A stretch of 64,000 nucleotides of DNA from NCBI RefSeq assembly GCF_963675165.1, contig NC_087387.1, positions 3,275,501 through 3,339,500 of the forward strand, written 5' to 3'. The stretch is from Halichondria panicea (taxonomy: Eukaryota; Porifera; Demospongiae; Suberitida; Halichondriidae). Below are positions 5,426-53,060 of this stretch, one piece after another (the stretch's first letter is position 1; each line of letters opens with the position of its first letter). The notes beneath the pieces are model-generated. The model searched no databases and was not told the origin of the DNA. It worked only from the letters and a program-made list of their open reading frames with translations. A program made the translations under genes and the position numbers.

Positions 5426-6300
5426 TTGAGTACGCCAAGAAGGGTATCTATCCCCTTACTCCCTGCTGTTAAGAAAGAACTGAACAGAATGGAACAGCTA
5501 GGTGTGATCTCTCGAGTTGAGGAACTGACGGAGTGGTGTGCCTTAAGAATACCTCACAAAGCTAAATACAAACGTCATGCCAGCTGTTCCCTTGCACAAG
5601 CTCGATATTTCTCGAAGTTAGATACTAATTCTGGTTTCTGGCAGATACCTCTTGCTCATCCCTACTCACAACGTTTATCACGCCTGCGGGCAGATATCAG
5701 TTCAACAGACTACCTTTCGGGATCGCTTCAGCCCCCGAGCATTTCCAAAGCAGAATGAAAGCAGAATGACAAACTTGCTAAACGGAGTTGTTTGTCTCAT
5801 GAACGACGTGCTAGTTCATGGAAAAACTCAGGATGAACACGATCAGAGACTACACGCTGTACTAAGGACGCTCCTAAACAAAGAGAAGTGTACGTTTTCC
5901 AGTACTAACATTTTCCAGTACTAATGTCAAGTTTCTCCTTTTCGACAAAGGAATCAGCTCTGATCCTGGCAAGATCAATGCAATTCAGAAGATACCAGAG
6001 CCCAAAAATGTACGCAAATTCTTGGGAATGGTGAACCATCTGACCAAATTCACCCCTCACCTGGCAGAAATGACAAAACCTCTGCGGGAACTCCTGCCGA
6101 AGATAAACGCTTGGTGCTGGAGCCACCCCAAAGAGAAGAAGCAATGACCGAGAGCCCAGTGCTAGCTCAAACAGGAGACACAATCGTACCAGACGATGGG
6201 TGCTGTCCTCATGCAAATGGCAACCTCCGTCCCGTGGCCTACATCTCAAGGTCTACCGAGCAAAGATATGCCCAAATCGAGAAAGAGCCATAACATGGGC
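5426..6300 (+). pseudogene. Gypsy-1 reverse transcriptase and RNase H remnant
   Basis: Reverse transcriptase blocks are recognisable: PAVKKELNRMEQLGVISRVE (about 5462-5521), LDTNSGFWQIPLA (5619-5657), a thumb-side VCLMNDVLVHGKTQDEHDQR segment (5791-5850) whose usual Y/F-x-DD motif reads LMNDV, so one catalytic Asp is lost, and KINAIQKIPEPKNVRKFLGM leading into the RNase H region. At least three frame changes and missing blocks are present. It replicated Gypsy RNA into DNA when intact. Confidence 0.75.
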
Positions 6301-27699: not shown

Positions 27700-29125
27700 A
27701 CCCAAATGGCCCTCCATACAGGCAAGGCTATTACATTTTCCATATGAACAACGAGCAAGTGTGAGATTGCATCGCCACGAAATCCACAACACAACCTCCA
27801 CAACATGGAATTGAATTTTGATGGAGCGTGGCGGTGGATTAAGACGAGAGCTGCTTCTGGAGCAACTGCTTCTGGAGTTGCATACTGGACTGAATATGGC
27901 GCTTTAATAGATGGTGCCCTGGACCATGTGCCAACATTGGGAGATTTATTTGTTACGTTATGACTGTCCATTGTTTCAGTAAAGACTATAATTTGTGGAC
28001 AAAGTGTGGACAAAGTGTGATTTGTGATGAAGAGCTCCGGAAGTCTTTTCCAGATTTATTGACCCGTTCGAAGTGCAAGCAGTAAAAGCTCCTAATGAAG
28101 AGGCTCTAGTAGGTTCAATGCTTTGCATGTACTTGCCCTTCTACCTTTGTGTGAGGAGTTGTTGATCATTTGTACGATGCCGTCTGTCCCTCGTGTTTTG
28201 AGGAGCCTACCATTACCAAGTTACGAGAAGATGCCCCCTGAAATGCTTGCCCATTCACAAGCAGGTTTTTCTCGTAGGCCTACGTCAAACACTTGCTCAA
28301 CTGTGCTTTATCACATATGAGTCTCACCTTACCATGTGCAAAGGGGTTAAAGGTTAAATTAATTCAGCATAAGTCAGGTATAAGTCAGTAAGTCAGCATT
28401 CTTCACTTGTGTATAAGTCAGCACACTAGTCAGCAGCATACTTGTGTATAAGTCAGCTGCATATCGTGTGGATCGTGTGGTGGTGGAAATATCCCACCAA
28501 AATTATGCCGTCCCACTGTGCCGAAATCGTCATTGCATGCAAGTTTATATTTATACTACATGCTGCATGTGTTCGTGTTCATGCCTCATCAAGCGAACAG
28601 TACCCTCGCGAAAATAAGCCCATCCCCTCTTTTGCTTCAAAGTTCTTGCACGAGGGTATTTGTATTTTCACTTGATTATAAGCCCACCCAGAATAAGAAC
28701 TGAATGCCACATGTTTACTATTAATTTTAGTGAAGAAAGGAAGTTTTAGGTAGTAGCTAGTAACTCCTTGCTGGACCAAGATCAGACATTATAACTTTCT
28801 CTTTCTCTGTATGGATCTGTTTGCCCCTGAAGATGTATATGCGTAGTCCTATATGCTGAGAAAGGAAACACAAAGTCTAAGAAAGTTATTACATAGGCTA
28901 ATTTTGCAGGTTACCTTGCCTTGGTTTTCTGAAACAGTATGACCTACCATCCTTCGAGAAGTTTCTGCTACATCTAACATCAACAGCAACAAATAGAGTC
29001 AGACTCAGAGTCCACTTCTTCATGTTCATTCTCTTTAATCATACTCATGCATTAGTCATACTCATGCATTAGTTTATAACTTGTCAATAAAAATAATGTT
29101 CATACTATGTATTAAAATGAAAGTA
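27700..29125. other. Stretch without recognised gene
   Basis: Plus-strand frames near 27820-28260 give short protein-like pieces such as VVDHLYDAVCPSCFEEPT around 28150-28200, in several frames, which may be a decayed exon of unknown type. Repeated GTATAAGTCAG words occur at 28370-28455. Nothing firm. Confidence 0.4.
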
Positions 29126-31169: not shown

Positions 31170-32640
31170 TATTGTCATGGGTGCATGGAAAAGAAGGAAA
31201 CAGAAAAAGGAAACGGAAGACGGAAACGGAAAACGGAAATGAAAAAAAAATTTTTCCTTTTCCTAAAAAAATCATCAATCAAAATTGTACCAGCGCGTGT
31301 ATAATAAGACCTGTGCAATCCTTGGTATGGAAGGTACTAGTCCCATGCATACTATACAGTCAGTAATAATTATTATTTATGATTTTGATCATTGTGAGAT
31401 CATAATGCATAGCATAGTTTGAAAGGAAGTATTATTATTATTATTCTGTATGACAAGTATACGACAACAACAAACAACACAAAGTAGTAGTCAAATTAAA
31501 CCTCCAAAAACACTTCTAAGCTCAGTGTTATGACACTCTGGAGGGCTCTCTAAAATAAGATCCTCCTGTGAGCCTAGCTTTTAGTATTCAAATCTCTTCA
31601 TGTGACATTGTTAAATTGTACCTCGTAAAATCCACCGTTACCATATTTTTTTGTTTTGCTTTAATATAATAAATGAGCAAGGGAGTCCAAACTGCCTATG
31701 AATAAAATAAATAAATGAACATGAAAGCAAGAGAGTCACTATAATTATGTGGGACAAGTCCAAATCGCAAGAATGAATAAATGAAATGAGAACGAACATG
31801 AAAGAAAGTGAGTCACTTAGAGAACAAAGTCACTTAGAGAAACAAGTCCAAATTCGGTGTTAAGATGGCTTACATGGGTAACGTTGAGGTTTTGCCTGAC
31901 ATCGTCTCTTATATACAAGCATTTCCGAAGAGCTGAAATGAACACTGCATTGCTTCCACACCAACAGGCTGTGTATAGTGGCAACAACATTTTGATCAAG
32001 CTCAGGGTCCAACAACGTTTCAATTATCGCAGTTGTGGTCAAATGTTTCTTTTGCTGAGAAAAAAAGCTCAATCATCTTGGGCCTTTGTTCAACTCGTTC
32101 CCTAAAGGTGCAAGAGATTACATTATTATATACAGTTGATTGACGCCGTACAAAAGCAACTTACTTCTTTATTGGGGATTGGGGATTGGGGATTGGACAT
32201 CACAACACAAAAATGATCCATTATAATTATCATCACTACTACATAAAGTATGAGTCCAGTAAGACAAAGTATAATTATTAGCTACATAATTATATAAACG
32301 CAAGGGCATGCTACCATGCATGGTCTTAGCCTCTGTACACAAGCTTACCTTTCTCCACTTTCGCTAATACAGAGAGAGAGCTATGTCTATACATATTTTA
32401 GTTGGTAAGCATGCTACCACTGGCCAACATCTTCAGAATCTTCACTACTGACTAGTATGGGACTATACCAAGGATTGCACAGGATAAAAGCCTTATTTAT
32501 ACACGCGCTCGGTTGGCACACGTTATTAAAAAAAAAAAAATCATTTCCGTTTTCTGTTTCCGCCGTCCGTTTCTGCTTTCTGCCTTCCGTTTCCGTTTTC
32601 CTTTTCCATGCACCCCAGTGTCATCAATTCTTTGATATTA
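31170..32640. repeat. Purine-rich inverted-repeat (foldback) element
   Basis: The left arm at about 31175-31360 has GGTGCATGGAAAAG, a GGAAACGGAA-rich tract, a poly-A or poly-T break, CGCGTGTATAA, then TGCAATCCTTGGTAT and ACTAGTCCCAT. The right arm at about 32440-32615 has the same blocks inverted, in reverse order. The interior (about 1.1 kb) shows no recognised gene. The 13-base poly-A at about 32527 is inside the right arm. Confidence 0.65.
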
Positions 32641-32821
32641 CTCAGTGGCTTGAAAATGATTTTTTAGCCTACTTTCAAGAGTACTTTCATGAGTGGGAGG
32701 ACCACCAAATGAAAAGAACAAAATGAAACACTGGTAATTAAACACTGGTAATTAAGGCAGTCACTCACACACACTCACTCACACACACTCCTCACACTGA
32801 TAAGTTTTTATTTATTTATGT

Positions 32822-32857
32822 AGTCAAGTCTTTTGTGGACAACAAGTACGTGAGACG
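32822..32857 (+). pseudogene. Gypsy RT fragment left of the integrase/HECT transposon
   Basis: A short coding piece (VDNKYVRR) in the RT region that continues in frame at 38444 after the transposon. It ends with the target word gagacg at 32852-32857. Confidence 0.55.
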
Positions 32858-33110
32858 TATGGGGTGTTATCTGTGTCAAAATTACTATGCCAGTGTGCAT
32901 ATGCCGGTGTTCAATGTGCATATGCCGGTGTGCAATGTGCATATGCCGGTGTGCAATGTGCATATGTCAACATGCATGTGCATATGCCAGTGTGCAATGT
33001 GCATATGTCAACATGCATATGCATATGCCAGTGTGCAATCAATGTGTGCTGCACATTTATATAATTATGTCAGTGTCCAATGTGTATATGTCAGCATGTG
33101 AATTTACATG
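32858..33110 (+). repeat. Left TIR with 21-bp subrepeats
   Basis: After the 30-bp terminal block, a unit close to GTGCATATGCCAGTGTGCAAT repeats about six times with variants carrying GTCAACATGCAT. The inverted partner is at 38100-38443. Stop-free frames across it give meaningless Cys-rich peptides. It may hold transposase binding sites and the promoter of the transposase gene (inference). Confidence 0.85.
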
Positions 33111-33213
33111 CATGTATCTATGATGTATGACATCGCAAGTTCACGATACGTACATGTCATGCGGAGGTCAAAGGTGAACATGCTAGGTGTGCTCTAAATG
33201 CAAAGCCCACCAA

Positions 33214-35026
33214 ATGGAAGGAGTTGTAGCTTCACTTGCGAATAGGCTTGATGCACTTGTTGTTAGTATACAGCATGTTGATGTAGATGACACTGACGAG
33301 TTAGAAAACTTTTGTGTTCGCCTGGAATCACTATATGCTGACTTGATCGAAACTGATTTAAGTTTTGGTGGTCTAATTCCTTCTCAAGTAATACAAAATG
33401 TATTTGAGTGCTGGAAGCAATTTCAAGATGTTGAAGTATCCATACCAGGCCGGCCTGCATTCGAAATTTCCCCTAGTGCACTTGAGAGTCTCATGGACCT
33501 CCAGTTCACGTCTCAAGACATTGCCACAATTCTTGGTGTGTCTAGAAGTACTGTTTGTAGGCGAATGAGGCAGTATGGCCTCTCATATGAAACTAACTAT
33601 TGCTGTATCAGCGACCAAAACCTCGATGAGATTGTGACAACAATATCTGCACAACATCCAGGATGTGGTAGCAAAATGATGAACGGTCACCTTCGGGCAC
33701 AGGGAATAATTACTCAACAAATTCGAATAAGAGAATCTCTACGACGGACTGATCCTGAGGGTATAGCTAGTAGGCTTCATACCAGTGTACGTCGACGAGT
33801 CTACAACGTTCCTGCACCCCAATATTTATGGCACATAGATGGAAACCATAAATTAGTAAGGTATGATGCTTTTTTATGTAGCCTATAATAGGTATGGCCG
33901 CCTATTTAAGTATGTGTGCACAATACATAATTATGTGGCCACTAAGTTTTCTGTATAATTATATACATGCATGCAGCTGTATAAACCAGTTTTTTTTAAC
34001 CCAGATGGAGATTTGTGGTGCATGGTGGAATAGATGGTTATTCAAGGTTGCCTGTGTTTTTGAATTGTTCTACTACCAACACTTCCGAATTGGTTTTTCA
34101 GTATTTCCTTGAAGCAGTTAACACGTACGGATGTCCACTACGAGTGAGATCAGATATGGGAGGAGAAAATATTAAGGTAGCCGAATACATGTGGTCTCGC
34201 CAGCACACTGGATTAGGTGAAGGTATGATTATGGGTCGATCGGTTCATAACCAAAGAATCGAGAGACTTTGGAGAGACGTGTATCAAGGTTGTCTTGGTC
34301 TATACTACAACATCTTCTCTTATCTCGAAACGTGTGGACATCTTGATCCATGCAACGAGCTTCATTTACTTGTTCTCCACTATGTCTATAAACCGAGAAT
34401 TCAACAGAGCCTGGACAGTTTTAGATATGCTTATGCTCACCACCCACTGAGCTCCTGTGGGAATCGAAGTCCGATACAATTGTTTGTTTCTGGTGCTATT
34501 CGCTGTGCACAGATACACCAACAAAACTATGTAAGTTTTAAGTGAACTTTGTGATTTATTTAGGGCAAATAGGCGAAATAAAAAATTGGGGGGAGGGGGG
34601 GTGCGTACATATGCACAAGGTGCATTGCAAACTATACAACTATACAAACTATAGGAGGATCGGGGTCCGGGACATATATTCCTTCCCAGAACATTTTTAG
34701 CTCAGCTTGTATAAATAATTATAATTATGTCCATACTACTACTGTCAAAAATCAAATTCCCCTCAATGATGTAATCACTTAGTTGTTGGTGCTTGTTCTA
34801 ATACGTTGTTTTTCTATAGGGGTCTGTATCTGTAAGTGATGGAATCGACCTCAGTGCTCCACTACCGTACTCGCTTGATGACCACACTGTAGTTGTACCA
34901 CAGGTGACAATGCCAAACCCTGAACTATGCTTACAACAATTACGTCGGTGCAATATTGATCCTACTGGAGATGATTCCAACTATGGTATAAATTTGTATC
35001 GACAAGCTATTGATATACTAGTTTGA
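33214..35026 (+). CDS. DD35E integrase-type transposase, three exons, 459 residues
   Basis: Exons 33214-33860, 34005-34530 and 34820-35026 join with GT..AG introns (144 and 289 bp) into 1,380 nt without stops. The start is ATG 33214 (MEGVVASLANRLDALV); an upstream ATG at 33179 stops after five codons. A helix-turn-helix lies at about residues 95-125 (TSQDIATILGVSRSTVCRRM). The integrase core has LWHIDGNHK (Asp 209), VRSDMGGEN (Asp 266) and HNQRIERLW (Glu 302), with 35 residues between the last two. A C-terminal domain ends NYGINLYRQAIDIL. This is the metazoan integrase-core family found in cnidarians, sponges and fish, often annotated as uncharacterised. It should bind the TIRs and catalyse transposition in the nucleus. 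All three acidic residues are kept and the frame is whole, so it may be active. Confidence 0.87.
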
Positions 35027-35039
35027 GATTGTTTATTTT

Positions 35040-35240
35040 ATTTTTATAATCAATGAATGAAAAAACAAAAGTGGTTCTGCAATCAAAATGAAGTGGCTCT
35101 CACAGTGATTAAAATACGTGATTGCAACCAATGAAAAAGAAAAAAACAAAAGTGGTTCTGCAATCAAAATGAAGTGGTTCTCACAGTGATTAAAATACGT
35201 GATTGCAACCAAATGAAAAACAGAAGTGGTTCCTTCAACT
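35040..35240. repeat. Two-copy 86-bp tandem repeat between the convergent genes
   Basis: A unit containing AAAAGTGGTTCTGCAATCAA, then GAAGTGG(C/T)TCTCACAGTG and TACGTGATTGCAACCAA occurs twice, with the start of a third copy at about 35215. It fills the 222-bp space between the two stop codons and so forms the 3' ends of both transcripts. It may carry the poly(A) and termination signals for both genes (inference). Confidence 0.8.
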
Positions 35241-35248
35241 ATGAACAG

Positions 35249-38005
35249 TTAGGCTTGTCCAAAACCAAAACCGCTTACTAGTCCTTCAATCATGCCAGTT
35301 TTAAATTGGTCATAAGACATCATAGTAGTGGCCATGGGCAGGTACATCGTCAGAGAACAAGTGGAGGCAGTAGGGAATATGTTTGATCGGTCAAAATCGA
35401 TCGTCACCATTTTATGGAAGCCCATTGGAGGAACTCGGTCAGCTCCAGTTGCAAAAACAAGTATATCTTCCAAGCTGAGTGTGTGTTCCTCATTCCCTCC
35501 ATCAATAGAATGAACGGTGCACACTGTAAAGATAAGAATCACAGATATCTTGCACACATACTCTTAGAATGTCTGGTTTACCTGCTAGTCCATTTTCTAT
35601 TTCCGCCAGAAATTCAACCCAGTTCATAGTGGTAGACTCTTCTGCCTCTCTGTCATTTGAACCATTGACGGAGTAGTTATACTCAGTGAGTGCCATAAAC
35701 TCCGCTAGAGAAAGGCGAGCTGGTGAGCCACATACCACAAACAGCTTCTTCATCTTGGCTGGATATTTCTTGAGGAGTCCGTCAACGTTAAATAGACGCA
35801 AACCTTCTTTCATTTGATCCAACTCGGCTTTGATTGGCACCAAACACGAATTGATGGCTATCGCCTTGTGCAACATTGGGACATCTTCTAAGGACACTTG
35901 TGTGATAGGTTTCGAGAACCCACACTCAAAAACAACATCAGCTGGATCTTCACGCAAGAGCTCACGAAGGGTGGTGACGTCAGTGCAACCTGTATATCAA
36001 CATAATTATAGTCTGAATCATGTTAGGTGTATAGCGTACCTTTCCCAAAAAATCTTTCACTGAATCAACAAGTACATCACTGACATTGATCACCACACCG
36101 TCCAACCCTTCGGCTAAATAATCATATACCCAACTTGAAAAACACATGGGTCCAGGTCCACCTTGCACTATGGACATTGCACAAATGTGCCCAACATATT
36201 TATAATGCTTTTGGAGGAGAGCAGTGGTATTATGCAAGAGCACTTTTTCGTATGTGGAATATGTGGAACCAGTGAACAAGGATGAATTACCAATACAAGA
36301 CTCCAATGCAAGTCGAAAGAATTCTCGTTTGGGTCCACCTTCATCAGCTCCAGATTCACCGACAAAGGTGACTCGTAGTGGCAGTAACACATTTGTGTAG
36401 GGCTTCGAAAAACACCGTTTGATGTCCTCCCAGAGGTGCTTACGTCGCACAGTTAGCTGTTGGTGTGGGTCTTCAACTCCACATTTAATGTTCAGTTCTG
36501 AGACATGTTGCTTGACTATTTCAGGGGTGTCAACTTCTTGCCTATGATAGTTATATTATTATATTAGCTGTACATGAAACACTTATTATTACATTGAAAA
36601 ATCTCTTTCAGCAGTAGCAAGACTAGCTTCTAAGGCCATCTGTAGTTCCGGCTCGTATTCGGCAGGGAGGTCTTCCTCGAGGAGATCGACGTATGCCCTA
36701 TCGTATAATAAATAATTGAGTCTATGACGTTTGTTTGACTTACGAATAACCAGTGGATGAAAAACGAACAGGCTGCTCAGAGCGGGTTGTTGAACAAGCT
36801 GATGTTTCAGCCAATGTTGGAGGTGTAGGGTCAGGGAGGCCTTCCTCAAGGAGATTGATGTATGCCCTATCGTATAATAAATAATTGAGTTATCACGTTT
36901 GTTTGACTTACGATGCAAAACGACCAGAGCGGGTTGTTGAACATGCTGATGATGTTGGAGGTGTAGGGGTCTGGTCAGGCTGCCCAGAGCGGATTGCATT
37001 CCTTGCTGATGACCGTAGCAATTCAGCCAATGTTGGTGGTGTAGGGGGCAGGCTGTCACAAGAATCCCTAACACAAAAAGCCGTTGCAAATTGATACAAA
37101 AGTAAAGAATACCTACTTTCCCTTTTCCTTCTCTTTTTTGCACAAGGCGCTTGCTTCTTTGCACACTTCAATATGTGTTTTTAAGTAAGAGATTTCCACT
37201 TCTTTTCCGCATTCCAAGCACCTCTCTTTGGGTTCTGTACCCTACATTTAATTTATTAAGGAGAACATACATAATTATAGCACTGTGCACATTATTTTGT
37301 CAGTTGTTCCATTTACCTCTCCAGTCTCACATGGTAAGCCGAAAATGTCCATAATGTCAGCTTGAACTGGGCGAATGTACACCCTTGCTTGCACCACATA
37401 CGACTTGAGTTTAGCAACTGAGGTGAAGAACTTCTGTTCTATTGGGATCAATGCCCTGGAGTATGGGCCGTCTGTTCGGTGTAGCTCAAAGCCACCAGCC
37501 TTAACCAATAACGGAAATGATTGCAAAATCACTTCTTTAAGATGAACATAATCCCCGTTTAGCTTGAACACAAGTTTCTTCTCACCGAGGTCAGCTTGTT
37601 TCAGTGTATACTTATCTTGAGGATTTGGCACACTTTCAACAGCAGTTTGACCAAGACATACGAATTTGTGTGTCCATGTCATTCCAGCTCGACCCTTTTT
37701 CTCGTAAGGGGTGCTTCTAGCGTTTCTTCTTCTGCCAGTTGCCCTTGGCATGAACTCTTGGACATTGAAAACACTGAATGGATGGATTGCATAACAGTAC
37801 TATAATTATTCTCAGGAATGCACTCCTGTTATTCTACATGCACACGTACATGCAGGCTCACGTACCTAGATATGACAGACGAGCTGCCGGTACCGGTAGG
37901 CCTAGATGCAGTAGATGGACCTGGAGGTGAATCTTCATCAGTAGGGTTCAATAGCTCTGCAGCCTCTTTTAAGAGGCTGTTTGCTCTGCTAATTTTGTCA
38001 GCCAT
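35249..38005 (-). CDS. HECT-type E3 ubiquitin ligase carried by the transposon, nine exons
   Basis: Minus-strand exons: 38005-37866, 37773-37317, 37241-37117, 37067-36912, 36866-36744, 36697-36593, 36541-36040, 35989-35582 and 35523-35249; introns 45-92 bp. Exon 1 starts MADKISRANSLLKEAAELL. Exon 2 has FNVQEFMPRATGRRR and a WTHKFVCLG domain. Exon 3 has a C2HC finger (C207, C210, H222, C226). Exons 4-6 are proline/threonine-rich, with partly duplicated segments. Exon 6 ends in a UIM-like helix (EPELQMALEASLATAE). Exons 7-9 form the HECT domain, with RVTFVGESGADEGGPKREFF in the N-lobe and FPTASTCSLTMYLP in the C-lobe; the catalytic Cys codon is at 35357-35359. It would transfer ubiquitin from E2 to substrates. 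The nearest known type is G2E3-like HECT proteins. One oddity: exon 7 ends in phase 0 while exon 8 needs one more base, so the total is 2,291 nt. Confidence 0.85.
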
Positions 38006-38099
38006 GATGATGATGCTGTGCTTTATTTAAAATCCAGACCATGTGGATGTTACATTGCCAGCAAATATTTTCATAAAAAAATGCCTACACTGGCATAAT

Positions 38100-38443
38100 T
38101 ATGCATAATTATTGTTGTCAGTTGAGGTATATACATATTGCACACTGACATACGCAAATTCCCATATGCATATGCATGTTGACATAGCATGTTGACATAT
38201 GCATGTTGACATATCCATATTGCACACTGGCATATGTGTTGACGACGTGTGCACACATTGCACACGCACACTGGCATATGCACATGCATGTTGGCATATG
38301 CACATTGCACACTGGAATATGCACATGCATGTTGACATACGCACATTGCACACTGGCATATGCACATGCATGTTGACATATGCACATTGCACACTGGCAT
38401 ATGCACACTGGCGTAGTAATTTTGACACAGATAACACCCCATA
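38100..38443 (-). repeat. Right TIR with 21-bp subrepeats
   Basis: The inverted partner of 32858-33110. GCATATGTCAACATGCATGT and GCATATGCCAGTGTGCAAT units repeat about ten times on the minus strand, so this arm is longer than the left one. It lies 95 bp upstream of the ligase start codon and probably contains that gene's promoter (inference). Confidence 0.85.
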
Positions 38444-38830
38444 GAGACGAGAGCGGTATCCCTCCACAACACCAGCAGAAGCTGTCGCTGACATAACACA
38501 GACCCAGGCTAAGCTCTTTACCGTCTTAGATGCACTCAAGGGATATCATCAGTGCCCACTTGATGAGGAGAGCCAAAACCTCACCACCTTCATCGTACCT
38601 GCGAGCCCCCTATGGAATTTCGTCCATCAGTGAACACTATAACCGACGCATGGATGAAGCACTAGCAGGCATGCCGTTATCATCTTCGACAGTAATCAGC
38701 AAGAACACATTGTTCATGTACTACGGGAGTTACTTCGTCGCTGCCAAGAAAAAGGCATCTCCCTTAATCGAGAAAAATTCAACGTAGCATGTAGGTACGC
38801 TGTCATCGAACTCGAATGCCTCGAAAATAT
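38444..38830 (+). pseudogene. Gypsy RT fragment right of the transposon
   Basis: Contains TQAKLFTVLDALKGYHQCPL (about 38498-38557), then DEESQNLTTFIVP, an RRMDEALAGM block, a VIIFDSNQQEH stretch standing where the catalytic DD motif belongs, and ELLRRCQEKGISLNREKFNV. This is the palm and connection of Ty3/Gypsy reverse transcriptase with frame changes. It is the disrupted target of the integrase/HECT transposon. Confidence 0.75.
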
Positions 38831-39353
38831 ACTCTGACCTTGTATTCATTGCTTTACGTAAGGCTCAGCTCTCGTTTAGACTAACACTGGAACGAGTAGC
38901 CGCTTTTGCAGTGTTCTACTGAAAAACACTGCTGTAAACAAAATTATATAAAATTTTCTATGTCTCTCGCAATCACTTGCCATGAATCAAGGAAGATTGA
39001 AGATTGTTGCTCTCAGATTGTTGCTCTCAGAAAGAATACACGACTTGGGCATGCGCAAAAATAATTATATAGACGCCCTTCAGTTTTCGCTACGTGTGCA
39101 GCTAGTCTTGCAGAGCTAGTAGCTACTAGCAACATTCGGTGAACAAACTTTGCTACGCACTCTTCTGCAATGGCATTCCAAATTATTTTGCAAATCCACG
39201 AATTAAAATCCAAGTAAATATGCCTCTTACTTACACTTGAAGCAGACACACAGACACAACCGTATACCTCACACTACCGTTAGTAATACATGCCGGCGAA
39301 GATACGGCTTTTATGATAAGTTTGTACAGTGGAAAGACAATCAGGGTGTTCTT

Positions 39354-39742
39354 TAGTGGGCCGGCTCTGGCAAAGTCGTTTACATAGTGGGATATCCTGT
39401 TTTCCTCTAAGTGTCCGGTGGGTGGGTTGTTAATTTTACTAGTTTCCCTCCAGCTGCAGAACATTGGCAGGTGGATCACACAGCTGTTCCGATTTAATCA
39501 CACACCATTAATTTTTAATTTTTATTTCACTTTCACACACCATTTTATTTAGTGAGCCGGCTCTGGCAAAGTCGTTTACATAGTGGGATATCGTGTTTTC
39601 CTCTAAGTGTCCGGTGGGTGGGTTGTTAATTTTACTAGTTTCCCTCCAGCTGCAGAACATTGGCAGGTGGATCACACAGCTGTTCCGATTTAATCACACA
39701 CCATTAATTTTTAATTTTTGTTTCACTTTCACACACCATTAT
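39354..39742. repeat. Direct repeat, two copies at about 197-bp spacing
   Basis: The block starting GCCGGCTCTGGCAAAGTCGT at about 39359 and running through TTCCCTCCAGCTGCAGAACA to CTTTCACACACCATT is repeated almost exactly from about 39556. Differences are very few, which suggests a recent tandem duplication. No coding. Confidence 0.85.
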
Positions 39743-39834
39743 TATTTTCACCGTCACGGATGAGCAATATTTAATTACATTATTTTGTAGGGCAAAGGAA
39801 GTAGTTGATCAACTAGATAGACTAGGATGACCTG

Positions 39835-39989
39835 TGATATCTTGAGAAGATTCAATTTAATTCAAGAATATGGAACTCTGATTCGTAGAATACAGACATT
39901 ACATCATCATTACAGTAAGCATAATTCCACCACTAACACCTGATATAGTCAGTCAAGTAAATTCTTGCCAGGTTCAAGATATAAAATCA
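39835..39989 (-). repeat. Gypsy-2 3' LTR, minus strand, shortened
   Basis: On the minus strand it starts TGATTTTATATCTTGAACC just after a polypurine tract (AAGAGGGAA, 39998-39990) and ends AAGATATCA, as in the LTR at 17840-18050. It is about 55 bp shorter because the middle, including the TATA region, is missing. Confidence 0.7.
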
Positions 39990-40269
39990 TTCCCTCTTAA
40001 ATGTGTACATCCATTAAGTGGCATCCGATTGCGAAGAGGGTATCGTAGACTAGCCTCTTGATCGATTTGGGGTGTGGGGTGAGGAGGGCAATTCAGGATA
40101 TTCGAATTCCGAAATCATTTCTGCGTCAGGGTATCCTCGTTTGGCTCGGTAGATGGGAATCTAGGTTGGATGTGGTCAACATGTCTGACTCGACCGTCGT
40201 CTAATTCAATTTCATAAGACACAGGTCCTCCTTAATGGTTCCTTAATGGTTCCTGGCATCCATTTCAGT

Positions 40270-41905
40270 TTACATTTATAACCGGTTGAGAATTGGAGTG
40301 CTTGTCGTGACTCTCTTTTTATCAAGCTTGTTCTTTATCGACTTTGTCCGGTTTGAGTAAGTCGAATCGAGTTCGTACTTTCCGTTGTAGGAACAACTCG
40401 CTCGGGGTCGAGTTAGTCGTGGCAGAGCGGTAAGTGAGCAGAAACTGTGACAAACGTGCACTCAATGATGGCTCGTCCCTTTCTCCAGCCAATCGTTCTG
40501 CTTGTCCGTTTGATGACTGATGATAGGGTGCTGTACGGATATGCTTCACACCATTAGACTTCATGAACTGAGCAAACTCGTCTGAGGTCACTGACCACTT
40601 GTTCGGGTAGTACTAGGATAACCTCCGGCCACTTGGAGTGAGCATCAACTTAGGAATGGTCCTGCAAAATCAATGTGTATCCTTTTGCACGGAATTGTTG
40701 GCCATACCATTTGACTTTTAAGATTTAGCCACTTCTTCGATGGCTTTGTCAATCCCACTCCACCAGAAGTAACTATCGCTTTCATCCGAGTAATACCAGG
40801 GTGATTCTCGTGAAGTGAATTGAGTAGCATTGAGTAGCATTAGATTGTGGAATGATGACACGGCTAATTTCATTTTGTCTGGCCTTGAATGGTTTGAGAT
40901 CATCCATAGGCCAACCATTGAAAACTGATCGTCTTCAGCACAGGGTCATGCAAAGTTTCGGTTTGGATCTGCTGGTAGTCAACTGGTAGCGATTGTACTT
41001 GAGCAACATTTGTACTTGAGCAACATTAAACACACTTGCTGAATCCTGACTTTGTTCAACTGTTTGAGTGGTCAGCGGTAACCGGGACAATCCATCTGCA
41101 TTACGATGAGCTTGAGTGGGTTTGAATTGGATTTCGTAGGAGTAAGCGTAGGAGTAAGCGGACAATAGTAATGCCCAACGTTGCAGGCATGCTGCAGCCA
41201 GAGAGGGGAATGCCAGAGAGGGGAATGCAGCCAGAGAGGGGACTCCTTTCTTTGAGCCAAAAATTGTGGCTTGTGGTCTGTAACGAGGGTGAATTGTCGA
41301 CCGTACAAGTACTGGTGAAATTTTTTAACACCAAAAATCAGACTTATTTTTCCAGCTGAGCGTAGTTCTTTTCGCTGGGGGCTAGAGTGGGGGTTAGAGT
41401 ATGAGACGCAAAAGAGATAGGTCTCTCACTGGTAAGTGTGCGAGACCACTGCTCCAATTCCATAGGCTGAGGCATCTGCAGCCATCGTCATCGGGACTTT
41501 GGGGTCATAATGTGTCAGTACACTCGCGGAGTCTTTAGCTAGCTGGAAAGCTTGGTCACATTCCTTGCTCCATTCCCACTTTTGCTTGTCTTTCAGCAGC
41601 TGATTGAGAGGGTGGAGGAGGTTTCGAACAAATTTGCCATAGTAATTGAGTAGTCCGAGAAAAGATCGTAGCTCTTGCATTCGTGATAGCTTTGGGAGTG
41701 CTCGGATTCTGTGCTGATCAACTTGATGACCCAAATACTCAACTGATTTGGCCATGAAATTGCACTTCGGCCTAATTCCTCAATAAGTTGCAGAGATGGT
41801 CCTCCGGGCACTCCTCCGATGTGCCCGTAACAAGTATGTCATCGATATAACAGATCACTCTGGGGATGCCTCGCAGTATCGTGTCCATCAATCGTTGAAA
41901 AACAA
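40270..41905 (-). pseudogene. Gypsy-2 RT, RNase H and integrase remnant
   Basis: Reading the minus strand: RT with CYIDDILVTG (about 41850), the EYLGHQVDQHRIRALP and RSFLGLLNYYGKFVRNLLHP blocks (41755-41600), RNase H with PMTMAADASAYGIGAVVS (about 41480) and LVTDHKP (about 41285), an integrase zinc-binding remnant with LLNSLHENHPGITRMK (about 40825-40780), CKRIHIDFAGPF, and the core end VKHIRTAPYHQSSNGQAERL (40545-40485). Order and motifs are those of Ty3/Gypsy. Frame changes, stops and small duplications break it. Confidence 0.8.
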
Positions 41906-52729: not shown

Positions 52730-53060
52730 AGGTGTTATCTGTGTGGGTGTTATCTGTGTCTGTGCACATGTCAGTGTGCAATGTGCATATGTGTGCAATG
52801 TGCAGTGCATTTGTCAGTGCATTTGTCAGTGTGCAATGTCACTGTGCCTGTGCCTATGTCTATGGGGTGTTATGTCAGTGTGCAATATGTCAGTGTGCAG
52901 TATATGTCAGTGTGCAGTGACCTATGTCAGTGTGTATATGTCAATATGTAGTTATAAAATCTACACTTGTAGTGATTCCTCTGAGATCTACATGTATATG
53001 TGGAGGTCAAAGGTGAACACGATTAGGCTAGGTGTGCTATCTAAATGCAAAACGTGGACT
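52730..53060 (+). mobile_element. Solo left terminus of an integrase/HECT-type transposon
   Basis: GGTGTTATCTGTG, TATGGGGTGTTATG and many TCAGTGTGCAATGT units match the TIR at 32858. Further in, GGAGGTCAAAGGTGAACA and GCTAGGTGTGCT-TCTAAATGCAAA match the leader just before the transposase start codon (about 33164-33204). Similarity stops before coding, so this is a truncated relative. Confidence 0.7.

Follow-up and report, generated by a model that had tools for sequence, protein, structure and literature searches.

IS3EU transposons, as characterised in the available part of one survey, have TA..TA ends, usually 6-bp target duplications, and no HHCC zinc finger ahead of their integrase-like core (PMC10045372), and for rust fungi the termini are given as TAYGG..CCRTA (PMC12730594). 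Fungal members of this superfamily carry extra enzyme genes, namely a TET/JBP dioxygenase and an alpha-kinase, the latter oriented opposite to the transposase, and the TET/JBP gene is linked by the author to an escape from silencing (PMC12730594). A second enzyme, a nuclease or helicase, is also kept by Kolobok lineages, in KolobokP downstream on the complementary strand (PMC9587614), and RAG-like transposons likewise hold two convergent genes, RAG1L and RAG2L, in one transposon (PMC7204232). The element of the sponge Halichondria panicea described here fits the same superfamily as the fungal elements but differs from them in its host and in its enzyme, a HECT ubiquitin ligase; no ligase is mentioned in the available portion of the fungal account (PMC12730594), from which the words 'ubiquitin' and 'HECT' are absent, and 'ubiquitin' is likewise absent from the main text of PMC10045372. 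Kolobok is a different superfamily, and its accessory enzymes, as far as the accessible text describes them, act on DNA (PMC9587614), whereas that of the sponge element is predicted to act on proteins. Among the papers listed by searches of the openly licensed PMC literature, we recognised none on a HECT gene paired with a DNA transposon. Two candidate papers were rejected: in the available text of PMC8195603 'HECT domain', 'DNA transposon' and 'transposase' occur in unrelated places, and 'hect' in PMC3946583 stands for hectares.

The window, i.e. the whole stretch of 64,000 nucleotides that was analysed, contains at 32858-38443 a complete DNA transposon, with 5,586 bp between two copies of GAGACG. 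Its features are given below with strand and, in brackets, the evidence for each.

32852..32857, no strand: left target-site duplication GAGACG (sequence)
32858..32887, +: left terminal inverted repeat, first 30 bp equal to the right end (sequence)
32888..33099, +: subterminal tandem and inverted repeats, units of about 21 and about 41 bp (sequence)
33214..33860, +: transposase exon 1, helix-turn-helix-like region (below Pfam cut-offs) and first catalytic Asp (gene model, Pfam)
34005..34530, +: transposase exon 2, second Asp and Glu, rva_4 integrase core, E 1.7e-61 (gene model, Pfam)
34820..35026, +: transposase exon 3, tail and stop (gene model)
35249..35523, -: HECT ligase exon 9, C-lobe; catalytic Cys codon at about 35357-35359 (by eye), here out of frame with the N-lobe (gene model, Pfam)
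35582..35989, -: HECT ligase exon 8, with the frame-breaking 7-bp deletion near 35978 (copy comparison)
36040..36541, -: HECT ligase exon 7, N-lobe (gene model, E6AP alignment)
36593..36697, -: HECT ligase exon 6, UIM-like motif ELQMALEASLATAE (by eye; no Pfam match) (gene model)
36744..36866, -: HECT ligase exon 5, Pro/Thr/Ser-rich repeat unit (gene model, repeats)
36912..37067, -: HECT ligase exon 4, Pro/Thr/Ser-rich repeat units (gene model, repeats)
37117..37241, -: HECT ligase exon 3, C2HC-type finger RCLECGKEVEISYLKTHIEVC, zf_C2HC_14 at E 0.086, below cut-off (gene model, Pfam)
37317..37773, -: HECT ligase exon 2, N-terminal domain recurring in other families (gene model)
37866..38005, -: HECT ligase exon 1 with ATG (gene model)
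38414..38443, -: right terminal inverted repeat (sequence)
38444..38449, no strand: right target-site duplication GAGACG (sequence)

The terminal inverted repeats, TATGGGG...CCCCATA, agree over 30 bp without mismatch. Further in, each end continues with longer subterminal repeats, both imperfect inverted and tandem, those of one end being for the most part inverted versions of those of the other. When the flanks are joined with a single GAGACG, they form one continuous reading frame that resembles a Gypsy-type reverse transcriptase (label given by eye), so both borders of the element are supported independently of the repeats. The coordinates, inverted ends and 6-bp duplication reported by the first-pass annotation are exact, and the two genes that it had placed inside, a transposase and a HECT ligase, are found there. 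The H. panicea genome, searched for the empty insertion site with up to 3 mismatches allowed, yielded no match, and Rfam at gathering thresholds gave no match in window 32500-38900. Retrotransposon pol-like reading frames (by eye) occur around the insertion at 38450-41324, one of which the element appears to split. Elsewhere in the window, a degenerate sequence related to the left end and 5' region of the element (68% identity) lies at 52731-53047 (+), with an end-like motif at 52861, and the end-like sequence TATGGGGTG stands at 168, close to the window start.

The transposase gene, modelled with three exons and GT-AG introns on the strand opposite to the ligase, encodes 459 residues. The open frame that contains its exon 2 matches Pfam rva_4 (E 1.7e-61), and the triad D209-D266-E302, with 35 residues separating the last two, is DD35E, the integrase type to which it had first been annotated. 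Among 7,141 candidates from the protein database, 2,866 are relatives at E 0.001; the best 120 of these include Porites, Ephydatia, Oculina, Dendronephthya, Actinostola and Amphimedon, and also fish, Mytilus galloprovincialis, Priapulus and Ptychodera. Viral and prokaryotic contigs scanned with the transposase yielded no relative. The structure predicted for the Ephydatia relative (mean pLDDT 79.7) has IstA (rank 1), retroviral intasomes and TnsB among its structural matches, and the Mu transpososome at rank 27.

By its ends and its duplication the element fits the IS3EU type, as far as sequence features can assign it. The terminus TAYGG..CCRTA is found as TATGGGG..CCCCATA, as TATGGAACG.. and as TATGGCGG..; one end of the own-type element on contig C7 reads TATGT. 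The 6-bp duplication is exact at 11 of 14 gene-bearing elements and at 9 of 11 short own-type copies, and the transposase is an integrase-like DDE enzyme by its rva_4 match, its DD35E triad and the IstA and intasome matches of its modelled relative. Ahead of the core the sole Pfam matches are to helix-turn-helix domains, every one under cut-off, and the invariant or nearly invariant columns of 17 sequences hold no His/Cys pattern of an HHCC finger. Ginger1 and Ginger2 were considered and ruled against by the 6-bp duplications, their own being given as 4 bp and 4 to 5 bp, respectively, in the available part of PMC10045372.

The ligase gene model comprises nine exons with GT-AG introns on the - strand, and the window frame with the C-lobe exon matches Pfam HECT at 3e-8. 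A second copy of the element, on contig C15, has an open ligase of 767 residues (Pfam HECT, E 1.1e-10) with Cys732 35 residues before the end; both lobes align with E6AP, including the Cys, the score of this single-sequence comparison being led by the N-lobe. A ligase profile covers both lobes of solved HECT domains (TOM1 3.2e-23, E6AP 5.9e-20). The predicted structure of the Amphimedon relative (P0122) agrees, with Smurf2, Smurf1 and HUWE1 as top Foldseek matches. The active-site Thr-Cys is invariant across eight ligase sequences of two classes (one row being a composite of two loci). These comparisons show, at the level of sequence, that the encoded protein is a HECT-fold ligase with a conserved catalytic Cys, for which ubiquitin transfer is a prediction. 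N-terminal to the HECT part lies a conserved domain, whose structure prediction is of low confidence, followed by a C2HC-type finger and a UIM-like motif, these last two named by eye. RAG1 also has a ubiquitin ligase part, of the RING type, which is fused to the transposase, whereas the sponge ligase is a separate HECT gene.

Over 5,555 aligned bases, the C11 (window) and C15 copies of the whole element are identical at 5,547 positions and have 8 substitutions, besides indels. They sit at different sites, with the target duplications GAGACG and CATCTG, respectively, and each holds both genes; the small number of substitutions argues for recent movement. Four of the indels lie in ligase exons, three of these in frame. 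Compared with the C15 copy, the window ligase lacks 7 bp near 35978 in exon 8; the frame is shifted in consequence, and a stop codon comes up ahead of the exon that encodes the catalytic Cys. As the undeleted arrangement is common to the C15 copy and the related C7 element, the state of the window ligase is derived. Domain and Cys are present as annotated, but the break in the frame before the Cys exon had gone unnoticed; cryptic splicing may restore the frame in this copy. In the C15 copy it is the transposase that is damaged: 8 bp are duplicated where exon 2 ends, exon 3 is thereby put out of frame, and the protein is truncated. With the window ligase and the tail of the C15 transposase both broken, neither copy is open for both genes.

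A transposase search of the same genome gave at least 150 matches, and after fragments of the same locus had been merged by hand 113 places resulted, the 71 best of which have E <=1.1e-32. HECT places were located with four protein queries and Pfam PF00632. At 52 of these 71 transposase places a convergent HECT match lies downstream within 6 kb; six have a downstream HECT match on the same strand only, and 13 have none within 6 kb. Among all merged places the convergent arrangement is found at 72 of 113. When the 71 places were set at random on their own contigs, the mean over 2,000 trials was 0.47 and the maximum 3. The count was followed by HECT set: the first query with PF00632 gave 38 convergent pairs among the 113 places, three protein queries merged with PF00632 gave 48/71, and addition of the fourth query, with 41 PF00632 rows (neighbouring exons) omitted, gave 52/71, which remained 52/71 with these rows restored. 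From the third and fourth queries, only rows that added places or exons entered the final count (6 of 35 and 34 of 106). The places without a HECT match and those with a same-strand match only suggest that some families may do without the ligase, or that it has diverged there beyond recognition. At C4:2654347, C4:3499370, C15:5971523 and C7:4194523 the downstream HECT match is 3.4 to 3.5 kb away and on the same strand, in contrast to the usual convergent order. Seven dispersed loci of one family are 98.7 to 99.97% identical over about 3.4 to 3.5 kb including the transposase core and the HECT C-lobe.

Seen from the ligase side, and for this genome only, two of the protein queries gave 60 HECT loci of the transposon type. 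A transposase place lies within 6 kb of 49 of them, in agreement with a ligase that travels in the element, whereas the other 11, which have none, speak against it. Pairing of this kind had initially been called unusual, a description that needs to be changed, since within this genome the pairing is the common state of the superfamily.

Two-ended elements were collected by genome-wide searches with end patterns, the ends being paired by eye, and ends of further families were recovered (TATGGAACGCC and TATGGCGGTAG). Fourteen such elements, including the window and C15 copies, are gene-bearing and represent four end types: 13 hold both genes, one the ligase only and none the transposase only. 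Copies with the same ends that never contain the ligase would have told against its being a part of the element; they were looked for, and its presence in 14 of 14 gene-sized two-ended copies strongly supports that it travels as such a part, as first proposed. The 6-bp duplications that had been expected at the flanks of other copies are exact in 11 of the 14, match in 5 of 6 positions in one (C11:3527910-3533768) and do not match in two (C5:4097706-4103060 and C23:12431-16445). At C5:4097706-4103060 the word ATAATC abuts the right end and is separated from the left end by one base. The two-ended C12:4328925-4331803, with an exact 6-bp duplication, has the ligase as its sole gene match.

The gene content of these elements bears on the idea that the ligase restrains the level of transposase and hence the damage to the host. 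Convergent gene order and frequent partnership would suit such dosage control. Selection acting on the element should, however, tend to lose a brake of this kind, and among the 14 gene-bearing elements one has kept only the ligase and none only the transposase, though 13 of the 71 places are without a downstream HECT match. We consider this role improbable.

In addition, 21 short end pairs of 0.6 to 3.2 kb have no match of either gene in the match lists, these lists being lower bounds. Among the 11 whose flanks were read, the duplication is exact in nine, matches in 5 of 6 positions in one and is lacking in one. The short gene-less copies would have been moved in trans: since they have the same ends and duplications, transposase and ligase may act on any copy that carries the right ends.

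The pairing does not look like a single capture, and its recurrence in many related elements of the genome makes the ligase look like a working part of them. The window element is a real, recently mobile transposon of IS3EU type, in which a HECT ligase is a stable second gene, and the two-gene arrangement is found in many families of this sponge's genome.

When the window family is compared with the C7 element, the HECT gene has a pS of 0.753 (saturated) and a pN of 0.258 over 616 aligned codons, the latter if anything too high as some intron codons lie inside the alignment; for the transposase, pS is 0.718 and pN 0.151 over 222 codons. No dN/dS value is given for the ligase because the synonymous sites are saturated. 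Distances of the transposase core and the ligase C-lobe correlate across 13 families (r 0.49, P 0.0001), and within ligase class A alone (r 0.59, P 0.002). Class B ligases accompany two transposase clades (in trees of moderate support), which suggests at least one swap of ligase class between transposases and a partnership that is old but not strictly fixed. Class B ligase fragments, 51 and 66% identical to the C3 family, are also found in the window at 27784-28144 (+), the nearest transposase match being that of the studied element, about 6 kb off. A further class B ligase, at C3:4745600-4748200 (L088, 62-1135 and 1588-1848, -), has its HECT part in one open 357-codon frame with a UBX-like stretch upstream.

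One reading of these data would be a HECT gene that was taken up from the host and does nothing for the element: transposons do capture genes, and a swap of ligase class probably took place. Such a passenger is nevertheless very unlikely in view of the ligase in four end types, the conserved Cys, the constraint at the protein level and the pairing at 52 of 71 places.

The correlated distances also bear on an alternative in which the ligase would ubiquitylate the end-bound transposase, so that a segregase such as p97/VCP extracts it and repair proceeds. Comparable complex removal is performed for phage Mu by the ClpX unfoldase, and the machines that the Ephydatia transposase model matches (IstA, retroviral intasomes, TnsB and the Mu transpososome) remain attached to their product. 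UBX domains bind p97, and one ligase family of this genome has a weak UBX-like stretch (E 0.0012); this match, at 19.5 bits, is below the curated cut-off of 21 and was looked for in that family only. Many related transposases, moreover, function without a ligase-type partner. We rank removal of the transposase complex second and consider it rather doubtful.

A profile of eight ligase sequences retrieved 41 proteins at E <=0.001 among 7,995 candidates scored in the protein database. Seven of them carry an organism name: Amphimedon, Halichondria panicea (P0123), Mytilus trossulus, Oculina, Actinostola, Dendronephthya and Coemansia, the match from the last, a fungus, being TOM1, an ordinary HECT ligase. 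A single full-length ligase found nothing at E 0.001 among 7,996 candidates scored, which, given the 41 profile matches, we attribute to the word prefilter. All five other animal genera with ligase relatives also hold transposase relatives, Mytilus via a different species, and ligase-bearing IS3EU-type elements are probably present in other animals, judging from these protein matches. The N-terminal parts differ: the Mytilus trossulus HECT relative (P0124) begins with TDP-43_N (2.7e-11), that of Dendronephthya, a sequence which ends before the Cys, has a weak CUE match (0.041) and that of Amphimedon a weak UBZ match (0.02), beside the UBX-like stretch of one H. panicea family. Variable N-terminal parts joined to a constant HECT part are what is expected if the targets change. 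Targets might also lie among other mobile elements, which the ligase would attack, or in chromatin, which it would mark to steer insertion; both have a general plausibility, and we regard them as the least likely of the roles considered here.

Our first choice, ahead of removal of the transposase complex but given slightly less than an even chance, is that the ligase removes host silencing factors. The transposase would cut and rejoin the ends at a 6-bp stagger, while the N-terminal parts of the ligase would direct it to a host protein, bound to chromatin, by which the element is silenced or blocked, and this protein would then be removed via ubiquitin. The element would have retained the ligase as an aid to its spread, a strategy corresponding to that proposed for fungal IS3EU elements with a DNA-demethylating enzyme. 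More tentatively, there may be a widespread animal branch of IS3EU with HECT as its standing second gene, in which constant catalysis is combined with exchangeable N-terminal recognition that tracks host silencing proteins in an arms race; it is possible, though we would not expect it with any assurance, that these ligases point to transposon-defence proteins in sponges, corals and molluscs.

In the openly licensed PMC papers searched, we found no cut-and-paste transposon that has a ubiquitin ligase as a stable gene of its own, separate from the transposase. The animal proteins named 'G2/M phase-specific E3 ubiquitin-protein ligase-like' are annotated as genes, unlike the ligase inside the sponge transposon, yet proteins of this name from Oculina and Dendronephthya are among the ligase relatives. 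Some 'E3 ligase-like' annotations in marine invertebrates may accordingly denote transposon genes; for another family, the available text of PMC10641963 documents transposons that were similarly misnamed as genes. If the ligase clears the transposase, it would do in animals what ClpX does for Mu. If it attacks host silencing, its targets would reveal the transposon defences of early-branching animals.
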